Part shown: positions 35,116 through 46,504 of the stretch, in pieces | How the letters are laid out: every line of letters starts with the position of its first letter | Position numbering within the stretch: position 1 is the stretch's first letter | From: Limnohabitans planktonicus II-D5 | GTDB taxonomy: Bacteria; Pseudomonadota; Gammaproteobacteria; Burkholderiales; Burkholderiaceae_C | Assembly: GCF_001270065.2 (NCBI RefSeq) | Contig: NZ_LFYT02000020.1 | Span: 1-64,000 of the forward strand | DNA: 64,000 bases | Reading direction: 5' to 3' | Notes under the pieces: model-generated | Told to the model about the DNA's origin: nothing | Database searches by the model: none | What the model saw: the letters and a program-made list of their open reading frames with translations, nothing else | Translations under genes and position numbers: made by a program

Positions 35116-36593
35116 GGCATGCGGGCCATGACTTCGGCCACGGATGCCGTCAGCTTTTTGGCGTAGGGCACATGCAAGAACTCATTGGGCCCGTGTGCGT
35201 TGCTCTTGGGGCCGAGCACACCGCAGACCATCATCTGCGCTTTGGGGAAACCGGCACTCAGCATGTTCATGAGCGGGATGGTGCCGCCTTGGCCGATGTA
35301 ACCCACACCAGCACCAAAGTGCGCCTGACTCGAGGCGTTGAGGGCTTGCTCGAACCATGGCAAGGTGTCGGGCGCGTTCCACCCCGTGGCACCGCCGCCT
35401 GATTCGAAGGTGACCTTGGCTTGGTAAGGCGCGTTGTCTTCGAGCAGGGCTTTCATCTCGGCCACGGCTTGCGCCGCGTCCACCAGGGGCGGCAGGCGCA
35501 GGCTGAGCTTGAAGGCGGTGTAGGGCCGCAGCACATTGCCCGCGTCTTTCAGCGCCGGAAAGCCTTCGGCCCCGGTCACGCTCAGCGTGGGTGTCCAGGT
35601 GCGGTTGAGCAAGGCTTGCGTGGGGTCGGTGGTGGTGGGCAGCGCAAAGCTGGTCGAGCCGCCGCAATCGTAGTGCGCCCAGGGGAAGCGCTTGTACACC
35701 TCGTCGCCCAAAATGGCGGCCGTGGCTTGCGCTTGCGCCAAGCGCTCGGCCGGCACTTCGCAGTGGAAGCTCGCGGGCAGCAGGCGGCCGGTGGCGCTGT
35801 CTTCCAACCGGTCAAGCACCTGGCGCATGATGCGAAAGCTCGACGGCACCAGGCCCGAGGCATCGCCCGAGTGGATGCCCTCGGTCAGCACCTGCACCTT
35901 GAGCGTGCCGCTGGCCATGCCGCGCAGGCTGGTGGTGAGCCACAGCTGGTCGTAGTTGCCCGCGCCGCTGTCCAGGCAAATCACCAGGCCCACATCGCCC
36001 ATGCGGGTGCGCAGCGCGTCCACATAAGGCAGCAAGTCATAAGAGCCGGATTCTTCGCAGGTCTCGATCAGGCCGACGATGCGCGGGTGCGGAGTCTTCT
36101 GGCTTTTGAGCGCCTGCACGGCCGCGATGCTGGCGTAGACCGCGTAACCATCGTCTGCGCCGCCTCGGCCATAAAGCTTGCCGTCTTCATAAACAGGGGT
36201 CCATGGGCCAAGATCGTTGCGCCAGCCGTTGAACTCGGGCTGCTTGTCCAGGTGGCCGTACATCAGCACCGTTTGCCCCGAGCCCTCGCTGGCAGCGCGG
36301 GTGGCCGCCACTTCAAAAAACATGACCGGCGTGCGCCCGGGCAACTGGATGATCTCGAGCGACAGGCCTTCCACCTTCTGCGCCTCAACCCATTGCGCGG
36401 CGCGGCGCAGCACCGATTCGATGTGGCCGTGCGCGGCCCAGTCGGCGTCAAACGCGGGTGATTTGGCGGGGATTTCGATGTAATTTTTCAGCTCGGGCAC
36501 GATGGTGCTGTCCCAGGCTTGGGTGACGTCGTTCAAGGCGCGGGCGCTGTCGAGCAGGCTGCCGGGCATTTCGCGGTGCAGGGGGGCGTTCAT
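35112..36593 (-). CDS. M20 family metallopeptidase
   Basis: A 493-residue di-zinc exopeptidase/deacylase-like enzyme. Metal and catalytic residues are visible in MYGHLDKQP, GRGGADDGYA, ETCEESGSYD and the late AHGPNEFLHV. A lid/dimerisation domain occupies about residues 205-390. The start is set at MNAPLHREMPGS, preceded by GGAG; the longer upstream frame is not conserved-looking. The family includes carnosine- and cysteinylglycine-type dipeptidases. Confidence 0.92.
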   Translation of the reverse strand: MNAPLHREMPGSLLDSARALNDVTQAWDSTIVPELKNYIEIPAKSPAFDADWAAHGHIESVLRRAAQWVEAQKVEGLSLEIIQLPGRTPVMFFEVAATRAASEGSGQTVLMYGHLDKQPEFNGWRNDLGPWTPVYEDGKLYGRGGADDGYAVYASIAAVQALKSQKTPHPRIVGLIETCEESGSYDLLPYVDALRTRMGDVGLVICLDSGAGNYDQLWLTTSLRGMASGTLKVQVLTEGIHSGDASGLVPSSFRIMRQVLDRLEDSATGRLLPASFHCEVPAERLAQAQATAAILGDEVYKRFPWAHYDCGGSTSFALPTTTDPTQALLNRTWTPTLSVTGAEGFPALKDAGNVLRPYTAFKLSLRLPPLVDAAQAVAEMKALLEDNAPYQAKVTFESGGGATGWNAPDTLPWFEQALNASSQAHFGAGVGYIGQGGTIPLMNMLSAGFPKAQMMVCGVLGPKSNAHGPNEFLHVPYAKKLTASVAEVMARMP

Positions 36594-36867
36594 GTTGGGG
36601 GCTCCTCGGGTCGGCTCAAAAGAAAAACACTGTAGCGCGTTTGGGATCGGCTGGCCACGGCGAGCACGCAAGCCAATGAAAGCGCCATGGATGCAGCGCG
36701 CCAAGCCCGGTCGGGTCAAGCAAGAGGCTGGGTAGAACGCCGCCGTCAGGCATGACCCCAATCGTTGTTACAGTCTCGCCAACGCCCACCCCACCCACAG
36801 CCTTCGGGCCTGAGGGGGGCTCACACCGACAACAAGCCGCCCAACAAGCAGCGAAAAAGGCTATCGC

Positions 36868-37611
36868 ATGGACCCTAAAACCACCGCCAACCCCAGCCTG
36901 TACTTGTTTGAAAAGTTCGAGGCCGGGGTCATTCACCTGGATGCCCAGCGCAATGTGCTGGCCATGAACGACTTTGCGCGCCGGGTTTTGCCGGTGGACG
37001 AAAAACAGCCTTTCAATAAACTCGTCACCTCCTTCCATCCTGAGCGCTCCAAACCCAAGGTCAATTTTTTACTCGACGAGGCTTCGGGCTGCCCCATGGC
37101 CAATGCGGTGCCGATGACCATGATCATCAACATCCCCGAGCAGGTGCTGCTGATCAAAGTCAGCCGTCTGGGCGATGCCCAAGGTGTCACCACCGGTTTT
37201 GCCTTGGTGTTTTACGACGTGACCCAAGTGGTCAGCCAGGAACTGCCCGTGGTGGAGCCACCTGCCAAAAACATGCGCCTGTCGCGCATCCCGATGGTGG
37301 CCGATCAGAAAGTCTCTTTTGTGGACACCGCCGATGTGCTGAGTCTGGAATCGCAAGCCCACTACACCCGTGTACTGACGCGCGAGGGCTACCACTTTTG
37401 CAACCTGAGCATTGGCGATCTGGCGCTGCGCCTGGACCCGGCGCAGTTCATGCGGGTACACCGCTGTTTCATCGTCAATTTGCAGGCCGTGCAGTCCTTG
37501 GGGCGCGAGGGCAGCAAAACCCACATCTTGCTCAAAGGCAAAAACACCCAAGCCGTGCCCGTATCACGCGGCGAAGTCGCCCGCTTGCGCGAGGCGCTGG
37601 GCTTGGGCTGA
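36868..37611 (+). CDS. rcoM: CO-sensing PAS-LytTR transcription regulator, RcoM type
   Basis: A 247-residue one-component regulator. Residues about 15-118 form a PAS domain and about 140-245 a LytTR DNA-binding domain (RVHRCFIVNL near 192). Known RcoM-2 haem ligands are His74, Cys94 and Met104 (spacing 20 and 30). Here His57 (SFHPERSK), Cys75 (SGCPM) and Met85 (MTMIINIP) keep the order with spacing 18 and 28, consistent with a two-residue gap. The haem would bind CO and switch on DNA binding. It lies directly upstream of coxMSL, the expected target. Binding of CO itself is inferred. Confidence 0.87.
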   Translation: MDPKTTANPSLYLFEKFEAGVIHLDAQRNVLAMNDFARRVLPVDEKQPFNKLVTSFHPERSKPKVNFLLDEASGCPMANAVPMTMIINIPEQVLLIKVSRLGDAQGVTTGFALVFYDVTQVVSQELPVVEPPAKNMRLSRIPMVADQKVSFVDTADVLSLESQAHYTRVLTREGYHFCNLSIGDLALRLDPAQFMRVHRCFIVNLQAVQSLGREGSKTHILLKGKNTQAVPVSRGEVARLREALGLG

Positions 37612-37679
37612 ACCCCCTGTAGTTGCAAGGCCTCGCAGCGATCAAGCCGAGAAAACCACCCCCACCCCCCTACACCCCT

Positions 37680-37710
37680 GGGTATTCAGCAGAAAAACCG
37701 AGGGTATTCA
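37680..37710 (+). promoter_or_regulatory. Candidate RcoM/LytTR direct-repeat operator upstream of coxM
   Basis: GGGTATTCA occurs at 37680-37688 and 37702-37710, a 22-bp step that places both copies on the same DNA face, as LytTR regulators need. It is about 205-230 bp upstream of coxM in a 301-bp gap. A 12-bp imperfect palindrome GACTGTTCAGTC at 37841-37852 lies closer to the gene. No convincing promoter boxes were picked out. Confidence 0.45.
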
Positions 37711-37912
37711 CTTAACTTTATCAACGTAAGGACATTCCCTGATTGCGAGTTCAGAAAAGTCTGTTCAATTCATTTCATGCTCAATAAAGTGCATTTCGTG
37801 CAATAAATCGACCATAAAGAGACGATTTTGAATAAAGCCTGACTGTTCAGTCGGAAAAGGACTCTCCTCAATACTGGCCTCCTGTTTTCCAACAAAACTC
37901 AGGAGACCTTTG

Positions 37913-38776
37913 ATGATTCCACCGCGTTTTGAATACCACGCGCCCAAAACTGTAGGTGAGGCGGTTGCCTTGCTCGGCCAGTTGGGCTCTGACGCCAAGC
38001 TGCTGGCAGGCGGCCACAGCCTGCTGCCGATGATGAAACTGCGTTTTGCGCAGCCCGAACACCTGATCGACATCAACCGCATTCCTGAACTCAAGGGCAT
38101 TCGCGAAGAAGGTGCCACCGTGGTGATCGGTGCGATGACGGTGGAAAACGACCTGATCCGCTCCCCCATCTTGCAAGCCAAAGTGCCTTTGCTGTGCGAA
38201 GCCGCCAAGCTGATCGCTGACCCCCAGGTGCGCAACCGCGGCACGATTGGTGGCGACATCGCCCACGGCGACCCCGGCAACGACCACCCTGCTCTGTCCA
38301 TCGCCATCGACGCCTCGTTTGTGCTGGAAGGCCCCAATGGCCGCCGCACCGTGGCCGCTGACGGCTTTTTCCTCGGCACCTACATGACGCTGCTCGAAGA
38401 AAACGAAGTCATGTGCGAAATCCGTGTGCCCGCCTTTGCACCCGGCACCGGCTCGTCTTACGAAAAGCTCAAGCGCAAAACCGGCGACTGGGCCACAGCC
38501 GGTTGCGCCGTGGTCATCCGCAAATCGGGTGACCAAGTCAGCCATGTGCGCATTGCACTGACCAACGTGGCCCCCACCGCCTTGCGTGCCGAAGCCGCCG
38601 AAGCCGCGCTGCTGAACAAGCCCTTCAACGCCGCCAACGTGCAAGCCGCCGTCGAAGCGGCGATTGCGATTTGCGACCCCGCGGAAGACCTGCGCGGTGA
38701 CATCGAATACAAGACCGCCATGGCCGGTGAGATGGTCAAGCGGGCCCTGAACAAAGCCTGGTCGCGCTGCGCTTAA
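37913..38776 (+). CDS. coxM: Aerobic CO dehydrogenase medium (FAD) subunit
   Basis: The flavoprotein subunit that takes electrons from the iron-sulfur subunit to the quinone pool. The 287-residue protein carries both FAD motifs, AGGHS at 32-36 and TIGGD at 111-115, at the positions known for CoxM. ATG 37913 with AGGAG seven bases upstream is chosen over a TTG three bases earlier. It is the first gene of coxMSL; the long leader upstream holds possible RcoM sites. Confidence 0.95.
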
Positions 38777-38793: not shown

Positions 38794-39279
38794 ATGTCCA
38801 AAAAACTCGTCACCGTTTCCGTCAATGGCAAAAAAGAAGAAAAAGCCGTTGAACCACGCACCTTGCTGATCCACTTCTTGCGCGAAGAACTCAACCTGAC
38901 CGGCGCCCACATTGGCTGCGAGACCAGCCACTGCGGCGCTTGCACCGTGGACATCGATGGCCAATCGGTCAAGTCCTGCACCCACCTGGCGGTGCAGTGC
39001 GATGGCTCGGAAGTGCTCACCGTCGAAGGCCTGGCCAACAAGGGCGTGCTGCACGCGGTGCAAGAAGGCTTTTACAAAGAACACGGCCTGCAGTGCGGCT
39101 TTTGCACGCCCGGCATGCTCATGCGTGCCTACCGCTTCTTGCAAGAGAACCCCAACCCGAGCGAAGACGAAATTCGCCACGGCATGGCGGGCAACCTGTG
39201 CCGCTGCACCGGTTACCAAAACATCGTCAAAGCCGTCCAGTACGCCGCCAAAAAACTGCAAGAGCCCGTTGCGGCTTGA
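38794..39279 (+). CDS. coxS: Aerobic CO dehydrogenase small (2Fe-2S) subunit
   Basis: A 161-residue subunit with two [2Fe-2S] clusters. Plant-ferredoxin-like cysteines are C42, C47, C50 and C62; the second cluster uses C101, C104, C136 and C138 (CGFC and CRC). All eight are present. It passes electrons from the Mo/Cu site in CoxL to FAD in CoxM. Confidence 0.96.
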
Positions 39280-39308: not shown

Positions 39309-41720
39309 ATGAACGCACCGGTACAAACCGCTGAAGCCCGCGAACTCGCGCTGGCCGGCATGGGCGCTTCGCGCCTGCGCAAAGAAGACGCCCGTTTCAT
39401 CCAGGGCAAGGGCAACTACGTCGATGACATCAAGATGCCCGGCATGTTGCACATGGACATCGTGCGCAGCCCGATTGCCCACGGCCGCATCGTCAAAATC
39501 AACAAAGAAGCCGCGCTCGCCATCCCCGGCGTGCACGCCGTGCTCACGGCCGACGACTTGAAGCCCCTGAAGCTTCACTGGATGCCCACCCTGGCCGGTG
39601 ACGTGGCCGCTGTGCTGGCCGACGAGAAGGTCCACTTCCAGATGCAAGAAGTGGCCATCGTGATTGCCGATGACCGTTACATCGCCGCCGACGCGGTCGA
39701 AGCCGTCGAGATCGAATACGAAGAGCTGCCCGTGGTGCTGGACCCCTATGCCGCGCTGCAACCCGGCGCCCCCGTCATTCGTGACGATCTGGCCGGCAAG
39801 ACCGAAGGCGCACACGGCAAGCGTGACCACCACAACCACATCTTCACTTGGGATGCCGGTGACAAGTCGGCTGCCGACGCCGCTTTTGACAAGGCCGAAG
39901 TGACCGTGTCGCAGCACATGTACTACCCCCGCGTGCACCCTTGCCCGCTGGAGACCTGCGGCTGCGTGGCCAGCTTTGACCCGATCAAGGGTGACCTGAC
40001 CACCTTCATCACCTCGCAAGCCCCTCACGTGGTGCGCACCGTGGTGTCCATGCTCTCGGGCATCCCCGAATCCAAAGTGCGCATCGTCAGCCCCGACATC
40101 GGTGGCGGCTTTGGCAACAAGGTCGGCATCTACCCCGGCTATGTGTGCGCCATCGTGGCCTCCATCGTGCTGGGTCGCCCCGTCAAGTGGGTCGAAGACC
40201 GCATCGAGAACATCTCGTCCACCGCCTTCGCCCGCGATTACCACATGGACGGCGAACTGGCTGCGACTGCCGACGGCAAGATCACCGGCCTGCGCGTGAA
40301 CGTGGTAGCCGACCACGGCGCGTTTGACGCCTGTGCCGACCCGACCAAGTTCCCTGCGGGCATGTTCCACATCGTGTCTGGCTCTTATGACATTCCAGCG
40401 GCACACGCGAGCGTCAAAGGTGTTTACACCAACAAGGCCCCCGGTGGCGTGGCTTACCGCTGCTCCTTCCGCGTGACCGAAGCGGTGTACCTGATCGAGC
40501 GCATGGTCGACGTGCTGGCGCAAAAGCTGGGCATGGACAAGGCCGAGATCCGCGCCAAGAACTTCGTCAAGAAAGAGCAGTTCCCCTACACCAGCGCCTT
40601 CGGTTTTGAATACGACTCGGGCGACTACCAAACGGCACTCGACAAAGTGCTCGAAGCCGTGGACTACAAAGGCCTGCGCGCCGAGCAAGCGGCCAAACGC
40701 GCCGACCCCAACAGCCCCACGCTGATGGGCATTGGCTTGGTGACCTTCACCGAAGTGGTGGGTGCCGGACCATCGAAGATGTGCGACATCCTGGGCGTGG
40801 GCATGTTCGACTCTTGCGAAATCCGCATCCACCCCACCGGCAGCGCCATCGCCCGCATGGGCACGATCACGCAGGGTCAAGGCCACCAGACCACCTATGC
40901 TCAGATCATCGCCACCGAGCTGGGGATTCCGTCTGAAGTGATTCAGGTGGAAGAAGGCGACACGTCCACCGCGCCTTACGGCCTGGGCACCTACGGTTCG
41001 CGCTCCACCCCCGTGGCCGGTGCCGCCATTGCCTTGGCTGCCCGCAAGATCCACGCGAAGGCCCGCAAGATCGCCGCCCACATGCTCGAAGTCAATGAAA
41101 ACGACCTCGACTGGGAAGTGGACCGCTTCAAGGTCAAGGGCGACGACAGCAAGTTCAAAACCATGGCCGATGTGGCGTGGCAGGCCTACCACCAGCCACC
41201 AGACGGTTTGGAGCCTGGCTTGGAAGCCGTGCATTACTACGACCCACCGAACTTCACCTTCCCCTTCGGCATCTACCTGTGCGTGGTGGACATTGATCGC
41301 GCCACCGGCGAGACCAAAATCCGCCGCTTCTATGCGCTGGACGACTGCGGCACCCGCATCAACCCGATGATCATCGAAGGGCAGATCCACGGCGGTCTGA
41401 CCGAAGGTTTTGCCGTGGCCATGGGCCAGCAAATGCCATTCGATGCCCAAGGCAACTTGCTGGGCAACACGCTGATGGACTACTTCTTGCCCACCTTCGT
41501 GGAAACCCCGCACTGGGAAACCGACCACACCGTGACCCCTTCGCCACACCACCCTCTGGGTGCCAAGGGCGTGGCCGAGTCGCCGCACGTCGGCTCGATC
41601 CCGACCTTCACCTCGGCTGTGGTCGATGCCTTCTCGCACCTGGGTGTCACGCACCTGGACATGCCGCACAACGCTTTCCGCACCTGGAAAGCGCTGCGCG
41701 AGCACGGCGCCGCTTTGTAA
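39309..41720 (+). CDS. coxL: Aerobic CO dehydrogenase large subunit, form I
   Basis: The catalytic subunit with the [CuSMoO2] site that oxidises CO with water to CO2. The 803-residue protein contains AYRCSFR with Cys385, the copper-binding loop that separates true (form I) CO dehydrogenase from form II look-alikes. Glu757 in GAKGVAES corresponds to the active-site base, and GGGFGNKVG is the pterin-binding loop. It lies 13 bp before coxG. Confidence 0.97.
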   Translation: MNAPVQTAEARELALAGMGASRLRKEDARFIQGKGNYVDDIKMPGMLHMDIVRSPIAHGRIVKINKEAALAIPGVHAVLTADDLKPLKLHWMPTLAGDVAAVLADEKVHFQMQEVAIVIADDRYIAADAVEAVEIEYEELPVVLDPYAALQPGAPVIRDDLAGKTEGAHGKRDHHNHIFTWDAGDKSAADAAFDKAEVTVSQHMYYPRVHPCPLETCGCVASFDPIKGDLTTFITSQAPHVVRTVVSMLSGIPESKVRIVSPDIGGGFGNKVGIYPGYVCAIVASIVLGRPVKWVEDRIENISSTAFARDYHMDGELAATADGKITGLRVNVVADHGAFDACADPTKFPAGMFHIVSGSYDIPAAHASVKGVYTNKAPGGVAYRCSFRVTEAVYLIERMVDVLAQKLGMDKAEIRAKNFVKKEQFPYTSAFGFEYDSGDYQTALDKVLEAVDYKGLRAEQAAKRADPNSPTLMGIGLVTFTEVVGAGPSKMCDILGVGMFDSCEIRIHPTGSAIARMGTITQGQGHQTTYAQIIATELGIPSEVIQVEEGDTSTAPYGLGTYGSRSTPVAGAAIALAARKIHAKARKIAAHMLEVNENDLDWEVDRFKVKGDDSKFKTMADVAWQAYHQPPDGLEPGLEAVHYYDPPNFTFPFGIYLCVVDIDRATGETKIRRFYALDDCGTRINPMIIEGQIHGGLTEGFAVAMGQQMPFDAQGNLLGNTLMDYFLPTFVETPHWETDHTVTPSPHHPLGAKGVAESPHVGSIPTFTSAVVDAFSHLGVTHLDMPHNAFRTWKALREHGAAL

Positions 41721-41732
41721 TCAGGAACCATC

Positions 41733-42365
41733 ATGGAAGTCAAACTCGACAAACAATACCCGCTGGATGTGGACGCGGCACGGGCCTGGGCCCTGCTGAC
41801 CGACCTGAAAGCCACGGCCAACTGCATGCCCGGTGCTGAAATCACCGAGCAGCTGTCTGAGACCTCGTTCAAGGGCGGCGTCAAGGTCAAGGTCGGCCCG
41901 GCTGTGGCCCAGTTTGGCGGCACGGTGGACGTGGTCGAAGCCGTGCCCGCTGAACGCAAGATGGTCTTGCGCGGCAAAGGTGCCGACAAGGGCGGCTCGT
42001 CCGCCTCGATGGACCTGACCGCGATCATCACCGCCGACCCGGCCAACCCGGCGCACTGCGTGCTGAATGGCCAAGCGGCGGTGATCGTGAACGGCAAGTT
42101 CGCACAGTTCGGCGGCCGCATGATGGTGCAAGTGTCCGACATGCTGCTGGCGCAGTTTGTCGAGAACTTCCGCCAGACTGCGCTCACCTTGCCTGCGGCC
42201 GAGGGCTCGCCCGCGGCTGCGCAGGCTGCTGCATCAGGTGGCGACGCTGCGGTGCCTGCTGCTGCGCCCACCGCCCCCGTGGTGGCCCGCGAGATCAACG
42301 GCCTGGCCATCTTCTGGGCTTTGCTCAAGAGCTGGTTTGGCGGCTTGGTCGGCAAGAAAGCCTGA
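41733..42365 (+). CDS. coxG: CoxG, SRPBCC-domain membrane-recruitment factor
   Basis: A 210-residue protein. Residues 1-145 form the CoxG/SRPBCC fold (MEVKLDKQYPLDVDAARAW, CMPGAEI). An Ala/Pro-rich linker (about 150-180) leads to a hydrophobic C-terminal segment (GLAIFWALLKSWFGGLVG). In other bacteria CoxG anchors CO dehydrogenase at the membrane and passes quinone, which fits this design. It is two bases from coxD. Confidence 0.93.
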   Translation: MEVKLDKQYPLDVDAARAWALLTDLKATANCMPGAEITEQLSETSFKGGVKVKVGPAVAQFGGTVDVVEAVPAERKMVLRGKGADKGGSSASMDLTAIITADPANPAHCVLNGQAAVIVNGKFAQFGGRMMVQVSDMLLAQFVENFRQTALTLPAAEGSPAAAQAAASGGDAAVPAAAPTAPVVAREINGLAIFWALLKSWFGGLVGKKA

Positions 42366-42367
42366 GC

Positions 42368-43366
42368 ATGACGACGCCAGACCTGAGCGCCACCGCTGCC
42401 ACCCCCGCTGAGCAAGAGCGCTTGCTGCGTGAGCGGCTGCAGCGCTCGGGTTATCTGGCCGATGCCGACCTGGCCACCACCGTGTGGCTGGCGTCTGCTT
42501 TGCAGCGCCCGCTGTTGCTCGAAGGCGACGCGGGCGTGGGCAAAACCGCCTTGGCCACGGCCTTGGCCCAAACACAAAACGCCACCTTGGTTCGGCTGCA
42601 ATGCTTTGAAGGCTTGGACCTGGCACAAGCCGCTTACGAGTGGAACTATGGCCGCCAGTTGATGGCGATCCGCATGAGCGAAGCGGCCCAAAATAGCGGC
42701 AGTCATAACGGCGGCAATCATGATGGCGCAGGCCGTGTGCGCGAGTCCGATGTGTTCAGCCGCGAATTTTTGCTCGAGCGCCCCTTGCTTCGCGCCATCA
42801 GCCAGACCGGCCCCTGCGTGCTCTTGATCGACGAGATCGACCGCGCCGACGAAGCCTTTGAAGCCTTTTTGCTCGAAGTGCTGGCCGAGTACCAAATCAC
42901 CGTGCCCGAGATCGGCACCATCCGCGCCACGCACATCCCGCAGGTGATTTTGACCAGCAACGGCACGCGTGAGCTGTCAGACGCATTGCGCCGCCGCTGC
43001 CTGTACCACTACCTCGATTACCCGACGCTGGCGCGAGAAATCGCCATCGTCAAAACCGCCTTGCCCGAGGCCGACACCCGGCTGGTGGAAGACGCGGTGC
43101 AGTTCGTGCAGCGCCTGCGCCGCGAAGACCTGGCCAAGATCCCCGGCATTGCCGAGACGCTGGACTGGGTGCGTGCGCTGTTCCAGCTGCGCCACACCCA
43201 TTTGCCCGAAGACATGTCGGCCGTGCTGGGCACCCTGGGCTGCCTGCTCAAGACCCGCGAAGACCGCTTTGTGATGGGCCCCGACCGCCTGCGCCAGCTG
43301 GTCGAAGGCCGCCGCACCGTGGGCGTGGCCGAAAACAGCACCGAGCAGGCCAAGGCCGCCGCATGA
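42368..43366 (+). CDS. coxD: CoxD, AAA+ MoxR-type ATPase for CO dehydrogenase maturation
   Basis: A 332-residue AAA+ protein with Walker A EGDAGVGKTAL (about 52-62), Walker B VLLIDEIDRADE (about 150) and the sensor-1 LTSNGTRELS. CoxD drives sulfuration of the molybdenum centre during active-site assembly. It normally acts with the VWA protein CoxE, which follows after a 112-bp gap with a repeat. Confidence 0.94.
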   Translation: MTTPDLSATAATPAEQERLLRERLQRSGYLADADLATTVWLASALQRPLLLEGDAGVGKTALATALAQTQNATLVRLQCFEGLDLAQAAYEWNYGRQLMAIRMSEAAQNSGSHNGGNHDGAGRVRESDVFSREFLLERPLLRAISQTGPCVLLIDEIDRADEAFEAFLLEVLAEYQITVPEIGTIRATHIPQVILTSNGTRELSDALRRRCLYHYLDYPTLAREIAIVKTALPEADTRLVEDAVQFVQRLRREDLAKIPGIAETLDWVRALFQLRHTHLPEDMSAVLGTLGCLLKTREDRFVMGPDRLRQLVEGRRTVGVAENSTEQAKAAA

Positions 43367-43478: not shown

Positions 43479-44696
43479 ATGACCCCCCACCTGGCCGCAC
43501 CAACCACCCCTGCGCAGGCCACCGCGCCCTCAGAGCGGCTGGCAGGTTTCGCTGCGCTTTTGCGCGACCACGGCCTCACGGTGGGCGTGGCCGAGCAGCA
43601 GGCCATGTTGCAAGCCATGCTGTACTTTGGCCCTATTCACGAACGCCCATTGCAAGCCGCTTGGCGCGCCATTGCCTGCCACAGCCACCGCGAATGGCAG
43701 CTGTGGGCAGATGTGTACGAGCGCTTTTGGCACCCCGAAAAACTTCGCGGCGGCGTCAAGGTCAGCGGCCAAACCCGGCCCAGCCGCAACCTGCGCCAAA
43801 GCGTGCAGGCCCTGCACGATCAAATGGACGCGGCCCAAAAACCCGCCAGCTCACCGGCCAGCCAACCCGGCCAGAACGCCGCACCCCAAACCGCTGGCGA
43901 CTCGGCATCGAGCCTGCATGACGAACAGGGCAGCGGTACGCCCCGCGCCCAAGGCGGTGCCAGCCGCACCGAAGCCCTGCACCAGCGCGACGGCCAGATG
44001 TGGATGCCGCAAGAACTCAGCGCCCTGCAAAGTCTGGCCCGCCAGATCACGGCCAAGCTGCAACCTCGCGCCACCCGCCGCTGGCGCGTGGCCCCACGCG
44101 GGCAGCGCCTGGACTTGCGCCAAACCCTGCGCCGCAGCGTGGGCTGGGGCGGCGAGTTGCTGCAACCGGCCTGGAAAGTCAAACGCGCCCTGCCCCCGCG
44201 CCTGTTCATCCTGGCCGATGTGAGCCGGTCCATGGAGTCGCACGCCGCGCTGTTTTTGCGCGTGGCCCGCGCTTTTGCCTTAGAGGCCGATGCCCGTGTC
44301 TTTGTGTTTCACACCCGCCTGGCCGAAGTCACGCCCTACATGCAGCGCGACACCCCCGCCATTCAGGAAAAAGTGAACGCTGTGACGGCTGGTTTTGGTG
44401 GCGGCACCCGCATTGCCACCAGCTTGCAAGACTTTGCCCGGCACCACGCCCGCGCCCAGCTCAACCGGGGTGCCCGTGTGTGGGTGTTCTCGGACGGCTT
44501 TGACACCGATGGGCCTGAATTTTTGAGCGCAGCGCTGCAGGAGGTGCGTGCACGCGGTGCCCGCATCACCTGGTTTCACCCCACGCGCCAGGTGCCCGCC
44601 GCTGGGGCCTTGCAGCGAGCGCGGGCCATGATTGACCGCTTTGTGCCCCTGGCCAGTTTGGCCGACTTGGCCGCTGCCCGCCATGTGTTGCACTGA
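43479..44696 (+). CDS. coxE: CoxE, von Willebrand factor A domain protein
   Basis: A 405-residue partner of CoxD. The C-terminal half is a VWA domain with MIDAS motif DVSRSM (about residue 245) and the FSDGFDTDGPEF strand. The middle (about 105-170) is a low-complexity Ala/Gln/Ser linker. It likely presents CoxD to the immature CoxL. The start is MTPHLAAP; the longer frame upstream would run through the repeat. Confidence 0.92.
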   Translation: MTPHLAAPTTPAQATAPSERLAGFAALLRDHGLTVGVAEQQAMLQAMLYFGPIHERPLQAAWRAIACHSHREWQLWADVYERFWHPEKLRGGVKVSGQTRPSRNLRQSVQALHDQMDAAQKPASSPASQPGQNAAPQTAGDSASSLHDEQGSGTPRAQGGASRTEALHQRDGQMWMPQELSALQSLARQITAKLQPRATRRWRVAPRGQRLDLRQTLRRSVGWGGELLQPAWKVKRALPPRLFILADVSRSMESHAALFLRVARAFALEADARVFVFHTRLAEVTPYMQRDTPAIQEKVNAVTAGFGGGTRIATSLQDFARHHARAQLNRGARVWVFSDGFDTDGPEFLSAALQEVRARGARITWFHPTRQVPAAGALQRARAMIDRFVPLASLADLAAARHVLH

Positions 44697-44720
44697 CATT
44701 TGACATCCAAGGAGAACGCC

Positions 44721-45821
44721 ATGAACCGCAACGAATGGATCACGCAGGCCGCACGCTTGCAAGCCGCCGACCAGCCCTTTGCGCTGGTCACGGTGCTCAG
44801 CGCCCAAGCGCCCACTTCGGGCAAGGCGGGCGACAAGGCGGTGGTCACGCCCGACGGCCAGATTCATGGCTGGATTGGCGGTGGCTGTGCCCAACCGGCA
44901 GTCATCAAGACCGTGCGCCGTGCTTTGCTCGACGGCCAGCCGCGCAAGATCCGCATTGCCCCCTCAGACGAAAGCGCCGAGCGCGATCTGGGCGATGTGC
45001 TCGAATTTGGCATGGCCTGCCACTCGGGCGGCACGCTCGAATTGTTCATTGACCCGGTCATGCCCTCGGCCATGTTGACCGTGGTGGGCGACTCGCCCGT
45101 GGCACGTGCACTGGTGGGCCTGGCCCCCCGCGTGGGTTTGCGCGTGGCGGTGGTGGCGCAGGGCGCACAGGCCGCTGATTTTCCCGATGCCGACACGGTG
45201 CTGAACAGCGACGAGGCCTCGCAAGTGAGCGCCCGGCTGTCTTCACCCTTTGTGGTGGTGGCCACACAAGGCCGCCGCGACCTGCAAGGCCTCAAAGCCG
45301 CACTCGCCCTGCAGCCGCAAGGCCTGTGGTTTGTGGCCAGCGCGCGCAAAGCCGGTGTGCTGCTCGACACCTTGGTGACCAGCGGCGAAGACCCTGCAGC
45401 CGTGGCCCGCATCGTGGCCCCGGCGGGTGAATTCATTGGTGCGCAAACGCCCGAAGAAATCGCCTTGTCGGTGCTGACTTCGGTGGTGGCGGCACGGCGT
45501 GGGCGTGAATCCTCAGCGCCTGCGGCTCAGGCTGCTTTGACAGCGTCCATGGCTTCTTCAGCGCTTACATCATCTGTTGCAGCGGCGGCTGCTGGGTCGT
45601 CTTCTTGCTGCTCAACCACTGCGGCCACCGAGCCCAAGGAGGCCACCAACACCAAGGCGCTTGCGCCGGTGGCGGCCAGCGCTTGCTGCGGCGGGTCCAA
45701 ACAGGCCGCAGGCCAAGCCGCTGCCACGGCGTCCGATGTCGTCCCAAGCCGGACCGTCGAGCCTGCATTGGCCCTGGCGGCTGTGCCAGCATCGGTCAAA
45801 TCTTCTTGCTGCGGAGGCTGA
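44721..45821 (+). CDS. coxF: CoxF, XdhC-family maturation factor with a cysteine-pair tail
   Basis: A 366-residue protein. The N-terminal XdhC/CoxI part (residues 1 to about 110, with GWIGGGCAQP and GMACHSGGTLE) and a Rossmann-like XdhC_C part (about 115-265) resemble CoxF, which helps insert copper into CO dehydrogenase. After about residue 270 there is an Ala/Ser/Thr-rich tail with three Cys-Cys pairs: 296-297, 322-323 and 363-364, the last two as CCGG, one at the extreme C-terminus. The tail looks metal-binding. The start is MNRNEWITQ with AAGGAGA upstream. Confidence 0.88.
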   Translation: MNRNEWITQAARLQAADQPFALVTVLSAQAPTSGKAGDKAVVTPDGQIHGWIGGGCAQPAVIKTVRRALLDGQPRKIRIAPSDESAERDLGDVLEFGMACHSGGTLELFIDPVMPSAMLTVVGDSPVARALVGLAPRVGLRVAVVAQGAQAADFPDADTVLNSDEASQVSARLSSPFVVVATQGRRDLQGLKAALALQPQGLWFVASARKAGVLLDTLVTSGEDPAAVARIVAPAGEFIGAQTPEEIALSVLTSVVAARRGRESSAPAAQAALTASMASSALTSSVAAAAAGSSSCCSTTAATEPKEATNTKALAPVAASACCGGSKQAAGQAAATASDVVPSRTVEPALALAAVPASVKSSCCGG

Positions 45822-45823
45822 AC

Positions 45824-46504
45824 ATGGGTTGCATTCTCAAAGGGGGCGGGGGCTTGTACAGCCGCGTGGCGGTGGGCGCGGTGCTGCTGGCTGCGGGTTC
45901 GGGCTCGCGCATGGGGCACCGTCCCAAAAGTTTGCTCGAATTGGGCGGCGTGCCACTCATTCGCCGCCAGCTGATCGCATTGTCGGGCGCGGGCATGGAC
46001 GAGGTGGTGGTGGTGCTGGGCCACTACGCGGATCGCATCGAAGAGGCCGTCAAGGAATTTCCGGTGACGCTGGTGCGCAACCCTGACCCGGACGCTGGGC
46101 AGATTTCATCGCTGCGGCTGGGCTTGCAGGCGCTGTCGCCCAAGCTGGATGCGGTACTGGTGGCGCTGGCGGACCAGCCGCTCATCAACTCGCAAGACAT
46201 CAACGACCTGATTGGGGCTTACAAAAAGCGCCCAACAGGCACGCAAGTCGTGCAACCCACGGTCGATGGCTTGCCGGGCAACCCGGTCATGTTCAGCACC
46301 GAGGTGCGCGAACAAATTCTGGCGGGCGCAGCGAACGTGGGTTGCCGCCAATGGCAGTCGGCCCATCCCGACCAAGTGCACCACTGGGCTTGCAGCAACA
46401 ACCGCTACCGCACCGATGTGGACACGCTGGAAGACATTGCCGCGCTGGCTGCACGCACCGGACACCAGCTCAAGTGGCCAGCTGATTTGATGGTCACCGC
46501 TTGA
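45824..46504 (+). CDS. MobA/MocA-like molybdenum cofactor nucleotidyltransferase
   Basis: A 226-residue NTP-transferase. The nucleotide-binding motif LLAAGSGSRMG (about 21-31) is followed by KSLLELGG and the LADQPLI metal-binding region. By family and position it attaches CMP to molybdopterin for CoxL, giving the molybdopterin cytosine dinucleotide that CO dehydrogenase uses. It starts two bases after coxF. Confidence 0.87.
   Translation: MGCILKGGGGLYSRVAVGAVLLAAGSGSRMGHRPKSLLELGGVPLIRRQLIALSGAGMDEVVVVLGHYADRIEEAVKEFPVTLVRNPDPDAGQISSLRLGLQALSPKLDAVLVALADQPLINSQDINDLIGAYKKRPTGTQVVQPTVDGLPGNPVMFSTEVREQILAGAANVGCRQWQSAHPDQVHHWACSNNRYRTDVDTLEDIAALAARTGHQLKWPADLMVTA

Follow-up and report, generated by a model that had tools for sequence, protein, structure and literature searches.

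A predicted RcoM-type haem regulator very probably controlling the adjoining form I CO dehydrogenase genes of Limnohabitans planktonicus II-D5

RcoM-1 and RcoM-2 of Paraburkholderia xenovorans LB400 are the closest described relatives of the regulator considered here. We take His74 and Cys94 to be haem ligand positions of these proteins. An RcoM is expected to bind haem, to have nanomolar affinity for CO and to activate cox transcription in response to CO. A study by Marvin of 2008 is said to describe a cysteine-ligated haem with a redox-mediated ligand switch, and Met104 is reportedly, from work by Bowman in 2016, the ligand that CO replaces. In reduced RcoM, 'histidine and methionine' serve as ligands according to the accessible part of PMC9670170. 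The published RcoM site comprises three TTCNNGCA direct repeats with 12–13 bp between them (accessible part of PMC11347149). RcoM is also of practical interest: its haem domain has a very high affinity for CO, and work is under way to turn it into a CO scavenger (accessible part of PMC11160397).

RcoM-type regulators are spread beyond Burkholderia. They are described for Rubrivivax, Geobacter, Pelobacter and R. rubrum in the accessible parts of PMC4257681 and PMC4703632, and that of PMC11771112 adds Cupriavidus and Paraburkholderia, where they adjoin form I cox genes. As in the present case, the proteins of Rubrivivax gelatinosus CBS, Geobacter sulfurreducens and Rhodospirillum rubrum are predicted from genomes, in the text accessible to us, to be PAS-LytTR regulators of CO metabolism. 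However, the same text places the Rubrivivax and Geobacter genes with anaerobic CooS-type CO dehydrogenase genes and that of R. rubrum beside cowN, whereas the present gene accompanies an aerobic Mo-Cu enzyme. CoxC of Afipia carboxidovorans OM5 is likewise a CO-sensing LytTR regulator of a cox cluster, but it represses and carries a membrane MHYT domain with copper in place of the PAS sensor found here (accessible part of PMC11347149). CooA is likewise a haem-based single-component CO sensor, but it belongs to the CRP/FNR superfamily and has a helix-turn-helix DNA-binding domain (same part of PMC11347149). A preliminary description of the present DNA had stressed a lineage outside the Burkholderia proteins studied. 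As a claim of novelty this is overstated, since RcoM-type regulators outside Burkholderia are already published and Cupriavidus is known to carry the type next to form I cox genes. Our literature search, which reached few subscription papers, found no mention of a Comamonadaceae RcoM in the accessible part of PMC11771112. It also found no experiments on the present protein or its branch in the literature covered, the main RcoM papers lying outside its scope.

The window, that is, the whole stretch of DNA analysed, comprises 64,000 nucleotides of L. planktonicus II-D5 (contig NZ_LFYT02000020.1). A PAS-LytTR open reading frame upstream of coxMSL had been noticed in it from the sequence alone, and this is confirmed at 36868–37611, with coxMSL following on the same strand from 37910. 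The regulator and the cox genes are arranged as follows.

36868–37611, + strand: rcoM, a PAS-LytTR single-component regulator of 247 aa with an ATG start (ORF, Pfam, alignment)
36907–37230, + strand: PAS sensor domain, residues 14–121 (sub-cut-off PAS_4, AlphaFold2 model, structure matches)
37312–37599, + strand: LytTR DNA-binding domain, residues 149–244 (Pfam, structure match 3d6w)
37910–38776, + strand: coxM, FAD subunit; the ATG at 37913, after GGAGA, is the likelier start (ORF list, Pfam)
38794–39279, + strand: coxS, 2Fe-2S subunit (ORF list, Pfam)
39309–41720, + strand: coxL, form I CO dehydrogenase large subunit with AYRCSFR at residue 382 (motif, TIGR02416)
41733–42365, + strand: coxG (Pfam)
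42368–43366, + strand: coxD-like AAA ATPase (Pfam)
43482–44696, + strand: coxE (VWA_CoxE), start uncertain, open frame from 43416 (ORF list, Pfam)
44700–45821, + strand: coxF-like XdhC/CoxI family protein (Pfam)
45605–46504, + strand: MocA-like molybdenum cofactor cytidylyltransferase, TIGR03310 under cut-off (profile match)

The true start of the MocA-like gene probably lies downstream of 45605, as the match begins at residue 92. The AYXCSFR motif is presumably the mark of a form I CoxL. The form I enzyme that had been proposed to adjoin RcoM is borne out by AYRCSFR at residue 382 and by a TIGR02416 score of 1561.9 bits against a cut-off of 991.15.

Pfam assigns residues 149–244 of the open reading frame at 36868–37611 to LytTR (E 2.6e-18) and reports PAS_4 at 20.3 bits, under the cut-off of 23.1. 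No further family appeared at E 0.001, and there was neither a receiver nor a kinase domain. The AlphaFold2 model of the 247-aa protein, made from a 53-row alignment, has a mean pLDDT of 86.9 and a pTM of 0.80. Its C-terminal part superposes on solved LytTR domains (3d6w, Z 15.8, rmsd 1.8 over 108 residues) and residues 16–122 match many PAS domains. The haem PAS domains of Aer2 (4hi4) and DosP (9ce0) were among the Foldseek matches, with weak E-values and without standing out. Modelling of the PAS domain had been suggested as a check, and both the predicted model and its structure matches support a PAS fold. Confidence is low at residues 71–90 (block means 71 and 67), where Cys75, Met83 and Met85 lie, so that the ligand geometry is unreadable from this model. 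Sequence matches to solved structures comprised LytTR domains, the PAS domains of WalK, DosP, FixL and others at weak E-values, and a few evident chance hits. A solved RcoM structure was not found by these sequence searches, and no RcoM was among the 50 matches listed for each structure comparison, which does not argue for its absence. As closer families, CoxC is ruled out by the absence of an MHYT match in Pfam and by the PAS fold found instead, and CooA by a Pfam result of PAS_4 and LytTR only.

Both RcoM genes of LB400, fetched by name from chromosome 3 (L045) and chromosome 1 (L050), were used as references. The window protein is 36% identical to each over its full length. It resembles them in the PAS-LytTR arrangement, the His/Cys/Met positions, the place beside coxMSL and the type of operator box. 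It differs from them by gaps of 8 and 2 residues, by Thr and Ala in place of Cys127 and Cys130, and by Ile in place of Met105. In the 112-row and three-row alignments, the columns of His74, Cys94 and Met104 of LB400 hold the following codons of the window.

37036–37038, + strand: His57, counterpart of LB400 His74, putative proximal haem ligand (alignments)
37090–37092, + strand: Cys75, counterpart of LB400 Cys94, putative Fe(III) ligand (alignments)
37120–37122, + strand: Met85, counterpart of LB400 Met104, putative CO-replaceable Fe(II) ligand (alignments)

The by-eye placing of these three residues on the LB400 ligands thus survives alignment with both LB400 proteins and with the other relatives. 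The His–Cys and His–Met distances are 18 and 28 residues in the window and 20 and 30 in LB400. A single two-residue gap had been offered as the explanation, and the alignment to both LB400 RcoMs does place one such gap between His and Cys; the 8-residue gap is a separate one, before His. The full-length identity of 36%, together with a histidine in all 112 rows, makes the ligand match a matter of homology rather than chance. From this homology we infer haem and CO binding by the window protein, and with them a Cys/Met redox switch, the exact ligand exchange being held with lower confidence than RcoM-type control by CO.

The relatives were gathered by a scan of which the best 80 of 263 were kept, ranked by similarity to a Paraburkholderia protein; the genome searches used whole proteins. 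The 112 alignment rows include the window itself and omit a copy of its own locus (L002). Start codons were taken by nearness to the expected start, the first residue being written as M. Across these rows, His is present in 112, Cys in 107 (His in 3, Gly in 2) and Met in 109 (Leu in 3). A quick tree of 111 rows, rooted at its midpoint and carrying long-branch warnings, separates a 44-row branch with the window protein, which includes named Comamonadaceae, from a 67-row branch with LB400 (SH-aLRT of the split, 100). The tree and the branch counts exclude one shortened open frame (L092, 197 aa). The window's branch keeps His in 44/44, Cys in 44/44 and Met85 in 41/44, and the LB400 branch His in 67/67, Cys in 62/67 and Met in 67/67; the Met85 counts from the scan lean high because one of the two patterns it searched with includes the Met104 counterpart. 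The counterpart of LB400 Cys130 occurs in 66/67 rows of its own branch and 0/44 of the window's, and that of Cys127 in 38/67 and 1/44, respectively. Cys75 is the sole cysteine in residues 1–135 of the window protein. In the same region, 26 of the 44 branch members have one cysteine, 17 have two and one has three. The 36 family genomes with an rcoM match, examined as 35 loci plus a truncated copy in G338, carry His in 35, Cys in 35, Met83 in 35 and Met85 in all 36, G019 being the exception.

Several relatives depart from the usual ligand set. At five loci (L076, L078, L079, L080 and L081) the Cys94 column holds His or Gly, and the stretch from the His ligand to the Met ligand is free of cysteine; four of them are from Acidisoma, Acidocella or Acidiphilium, and L078 is an unclassified MAG. 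In L079, L080 and L081, Gly/His-rich insertions in this stretch leave the exact column in doubt. All five adjoin cox genes, their CoxL being 74–75% identical to that of the window. A full-length homologue in G019 (L124:177–911), outside the 112 rows, lacks counterparts of His57, Cys75 and Met83, and the same genome has, on a different contig, a form I coxL with 92% identity to that of the window. In the draft genome G338 (L165:606–926), the match to rcoM breaks off after residue 110, and a coxM match starts within 50 bases of it; the LytTR part seems to have been lost. A Leu at the Met104 counterpart, with Met83 kept in every case, was seen at L100, L102, L103, L156–L159 and L162, which are Ramlibacter, a Comamonadaceae MAG and same-genus genomes, some possibly one genome twice. 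The divergent branch, the natural Met-to-Leu and Cys-to-His/Gly changes and the ligand-less homologues offer ready-made comparisons on the roles of the ligands.

The regulator is closely tied to the cox genes. The rcoM stop and the coxM start are 298 bp apart in the window, and 107 of the 112 rows have a coxM on the locus that was fetched. The rows lacking it are L025, where the contig ends 234 bp after rcoM, L068, L089, L094 and L096. The window's branch has coxM downstream of rcoM on the same strand in 43 of 44 rows, L025 being the 44th. The 67-row branch has it divergent in 55 (including both LB400 loci, whose rcoM points away from coxM whereas that of the window is co-directional), co-directional in 8 and absent from the locus in 4. 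Among 399 family genomes sampled, the window's included, 36 have rcoM, 38 have a CoxL above the TIGR02416 cut-off and 35 have both, which gives a Fisher p of 1.3e-45 (1.4e-44 without the window's genome) with shared ancestry ignored. The one genome with rcoM and no coxL (G336) has a contig ending in coxM. The three of 38 with coxL only (G017, G124 and G247) gave no full-length rcoM in a laxer search, and five further genomes from the genus of the window gave neither an rcoM match nor a CoxL above the TIGR02416 cut-off.

Ahead of coxM, two candidate operator boxes were first spotted by eye, with a period of 21 and a spacing of 13 bp.

37774–37781, + strand: candidate operator box 1, TTCATGCT (box scoring)
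37795–37802, + strand: candidate operator box 2, TTCGTGCA (box scoring)

For comparison, the rcoM–coxM intergenic stretch, oriented towards coxM, was scored in 105 of 112 loci; the five loci without coxM and two outside 40–1200 bp (L033, L035) make up the rest. As a positive control, both LB400 loci give TTCGCGCA-TTCACGCA-TTCGGGAA with 21-bp periods. The mean box score out of 18 was 14.5 forward against 11.5 reverse and 11.1 shuffled in the 51 co-directional stretches, and 14.8 against 11.9 and 11.6 in the 54 divergent ones. The observed score was reached by at most 3 of 60 shuffles in 43/51 co-directional and 42/54 divergent stretches. The window is not among these, its three-box score being reached by 4/60 shuffles. 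For two boxes, a test adopted once the boxes had been seen, its score was reached by 6/3000 shuffles. At this score, the 64-kb window holds one place on the + strand (37774–37802) and three on the − strand. On the shuffle and 64-kb scan results, the two boxes are credible and the third would be missing or degenerate. A three-box operator in the window is unproven, as its best third box scores poorly; the window shows two clear boxes where LB400 has three. The comparison across loci supports the two putative operator boxes ahead of coxM. A simple scan of 36560–37920, which includes the rcoM–coxM gap, found no sigma-70-like promoter.

The window protein is homologous to both LB400 RcoMs, carries counterparts of their haem ligands and adjoins the cox genes, and it is a sound, if unremarkable, representative of its family. 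Gene order, co-occurrence and the candidate boxes fit an expression of cox under the control of CO. We give a probability of about 0.88 to the gene encoding an RcoM-type, CO-responsive haem activator of the cox cluster, which very probably switches on the adjoining genes of the CO-oxidising enzyme. By extension from the work on the LB400 RcoMs, it would sense CO in the cytoplasm as a single-component protein and activate transcription, and its PAS domain would hold a b-type haem on His57. Cys75 would be a ligand of the ferric iron, Met85 would replace it upon reduction, and CO would in turn displace Met85. The LytTR domain of the CO form would then bind the boxes at 37774–37802, and the bound form would turn on coxMSL and the downstream cox genes.

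Two alternatives to CO control carry little weight. A haem sensor of the RcoM fold might respond mainly to redox, O2 or NO, with cox as just one target, and the PAS model does match the haem PAS domains of Aer2 (4hi4) and DosP (9ce0) as well, with weak E-values. However, the gene is closely linked to form I CO dehydrogenase genes and co-occurs with them, and all three RcoM ligand counterparts are present, which makes such a signal very improbable. Even less probable is a haem-less or degenerate RcoM relative with constitutive control of cox. The G019 homologue without His57, Cys75 and Met83 counterparts shows that such forms exist, but the window protein retains all three residues as well as Met85.

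A weightier alternative, still an unlikely one, concerns the distal Fe(II) ligand within an RcoM, which could be Met83, or be shared between Met83 and Met85, so that the CO-replaceable ligand would not simply be the Met104 counterpart.

37114–37116, + strand: Met83, present in 44/44 of the window's branch, a rival or second distal ligand (branch alignment)

Met83 precedes Met85 by two residues. Its invariance in the window's branch, where Met85 stands at 41/44, favours this alternative when set against the LB400 branch, in which the column is Met in 14/67 and Val in 46/67. The genus of Ramlibacter monticola points the same way: its 10 RcoM matches, from 60 genomes searched (E 1e-60) and including the monticola genome itself (L100), have Leu for Met85 in 6/10 and Met83 in 10/10. 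There, and possibly here, Met83 or Met86 may therefore serve. These counts leave the Fe(II) ligand of the window's branch less certain than that of LB400. On the other hand, the family genomes keep Met85 in 36/36 and Met83 in 35/36, and it is Met85 that aligns with the ligand tested in LB400. The conservation of Met83 may also reflect a role in the haem pocket or core, and Met86 (LB400 Met105) is a further candidate in the Ramlibacter variants. Met85 as the sole distal ligand is thus likely but not certain. A wider version, which we regard as rather doubtful, is that the window's branch represents a second kind of RcoM haem site with a Met-x-Met pair, of which Met83 or Met85 binds Fe(II), the Ramlibacter lineages being already without the Met104 counterpart. 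If so, any redox switch would have to use Cys75 alone, as the only cysteine in residues 1–135.

Two minor observations concern the surroundings of the regulator. Identity to the CoxL of the window separates the CoxL proteins into two groups, with 84–88% in L075, L082, L101, L104, L106–L109 and L113 and 69–77% in the other loci where CoxL was found. In L075 and L082, a CoxL of the closer type adjoins a divergent rcoM that belongs to the LB400 branch, a pairing of CoxL and rcoM that hints at exchange between clusters. Additionally, a short conserved block lies upstream of the candidate operator boxes.

37730–37746, + strand: conserved block GGACATTCCCTGATTGC, with a TTCCC core 39 bp ahead of operator box 1 (branch comparison)

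This block is possibly the site of a second regulator. Among the 33 branch loci that extend far enough to reveal it, 14 have a TTCCC core 39–41 bp upstream of the first RcoM box.
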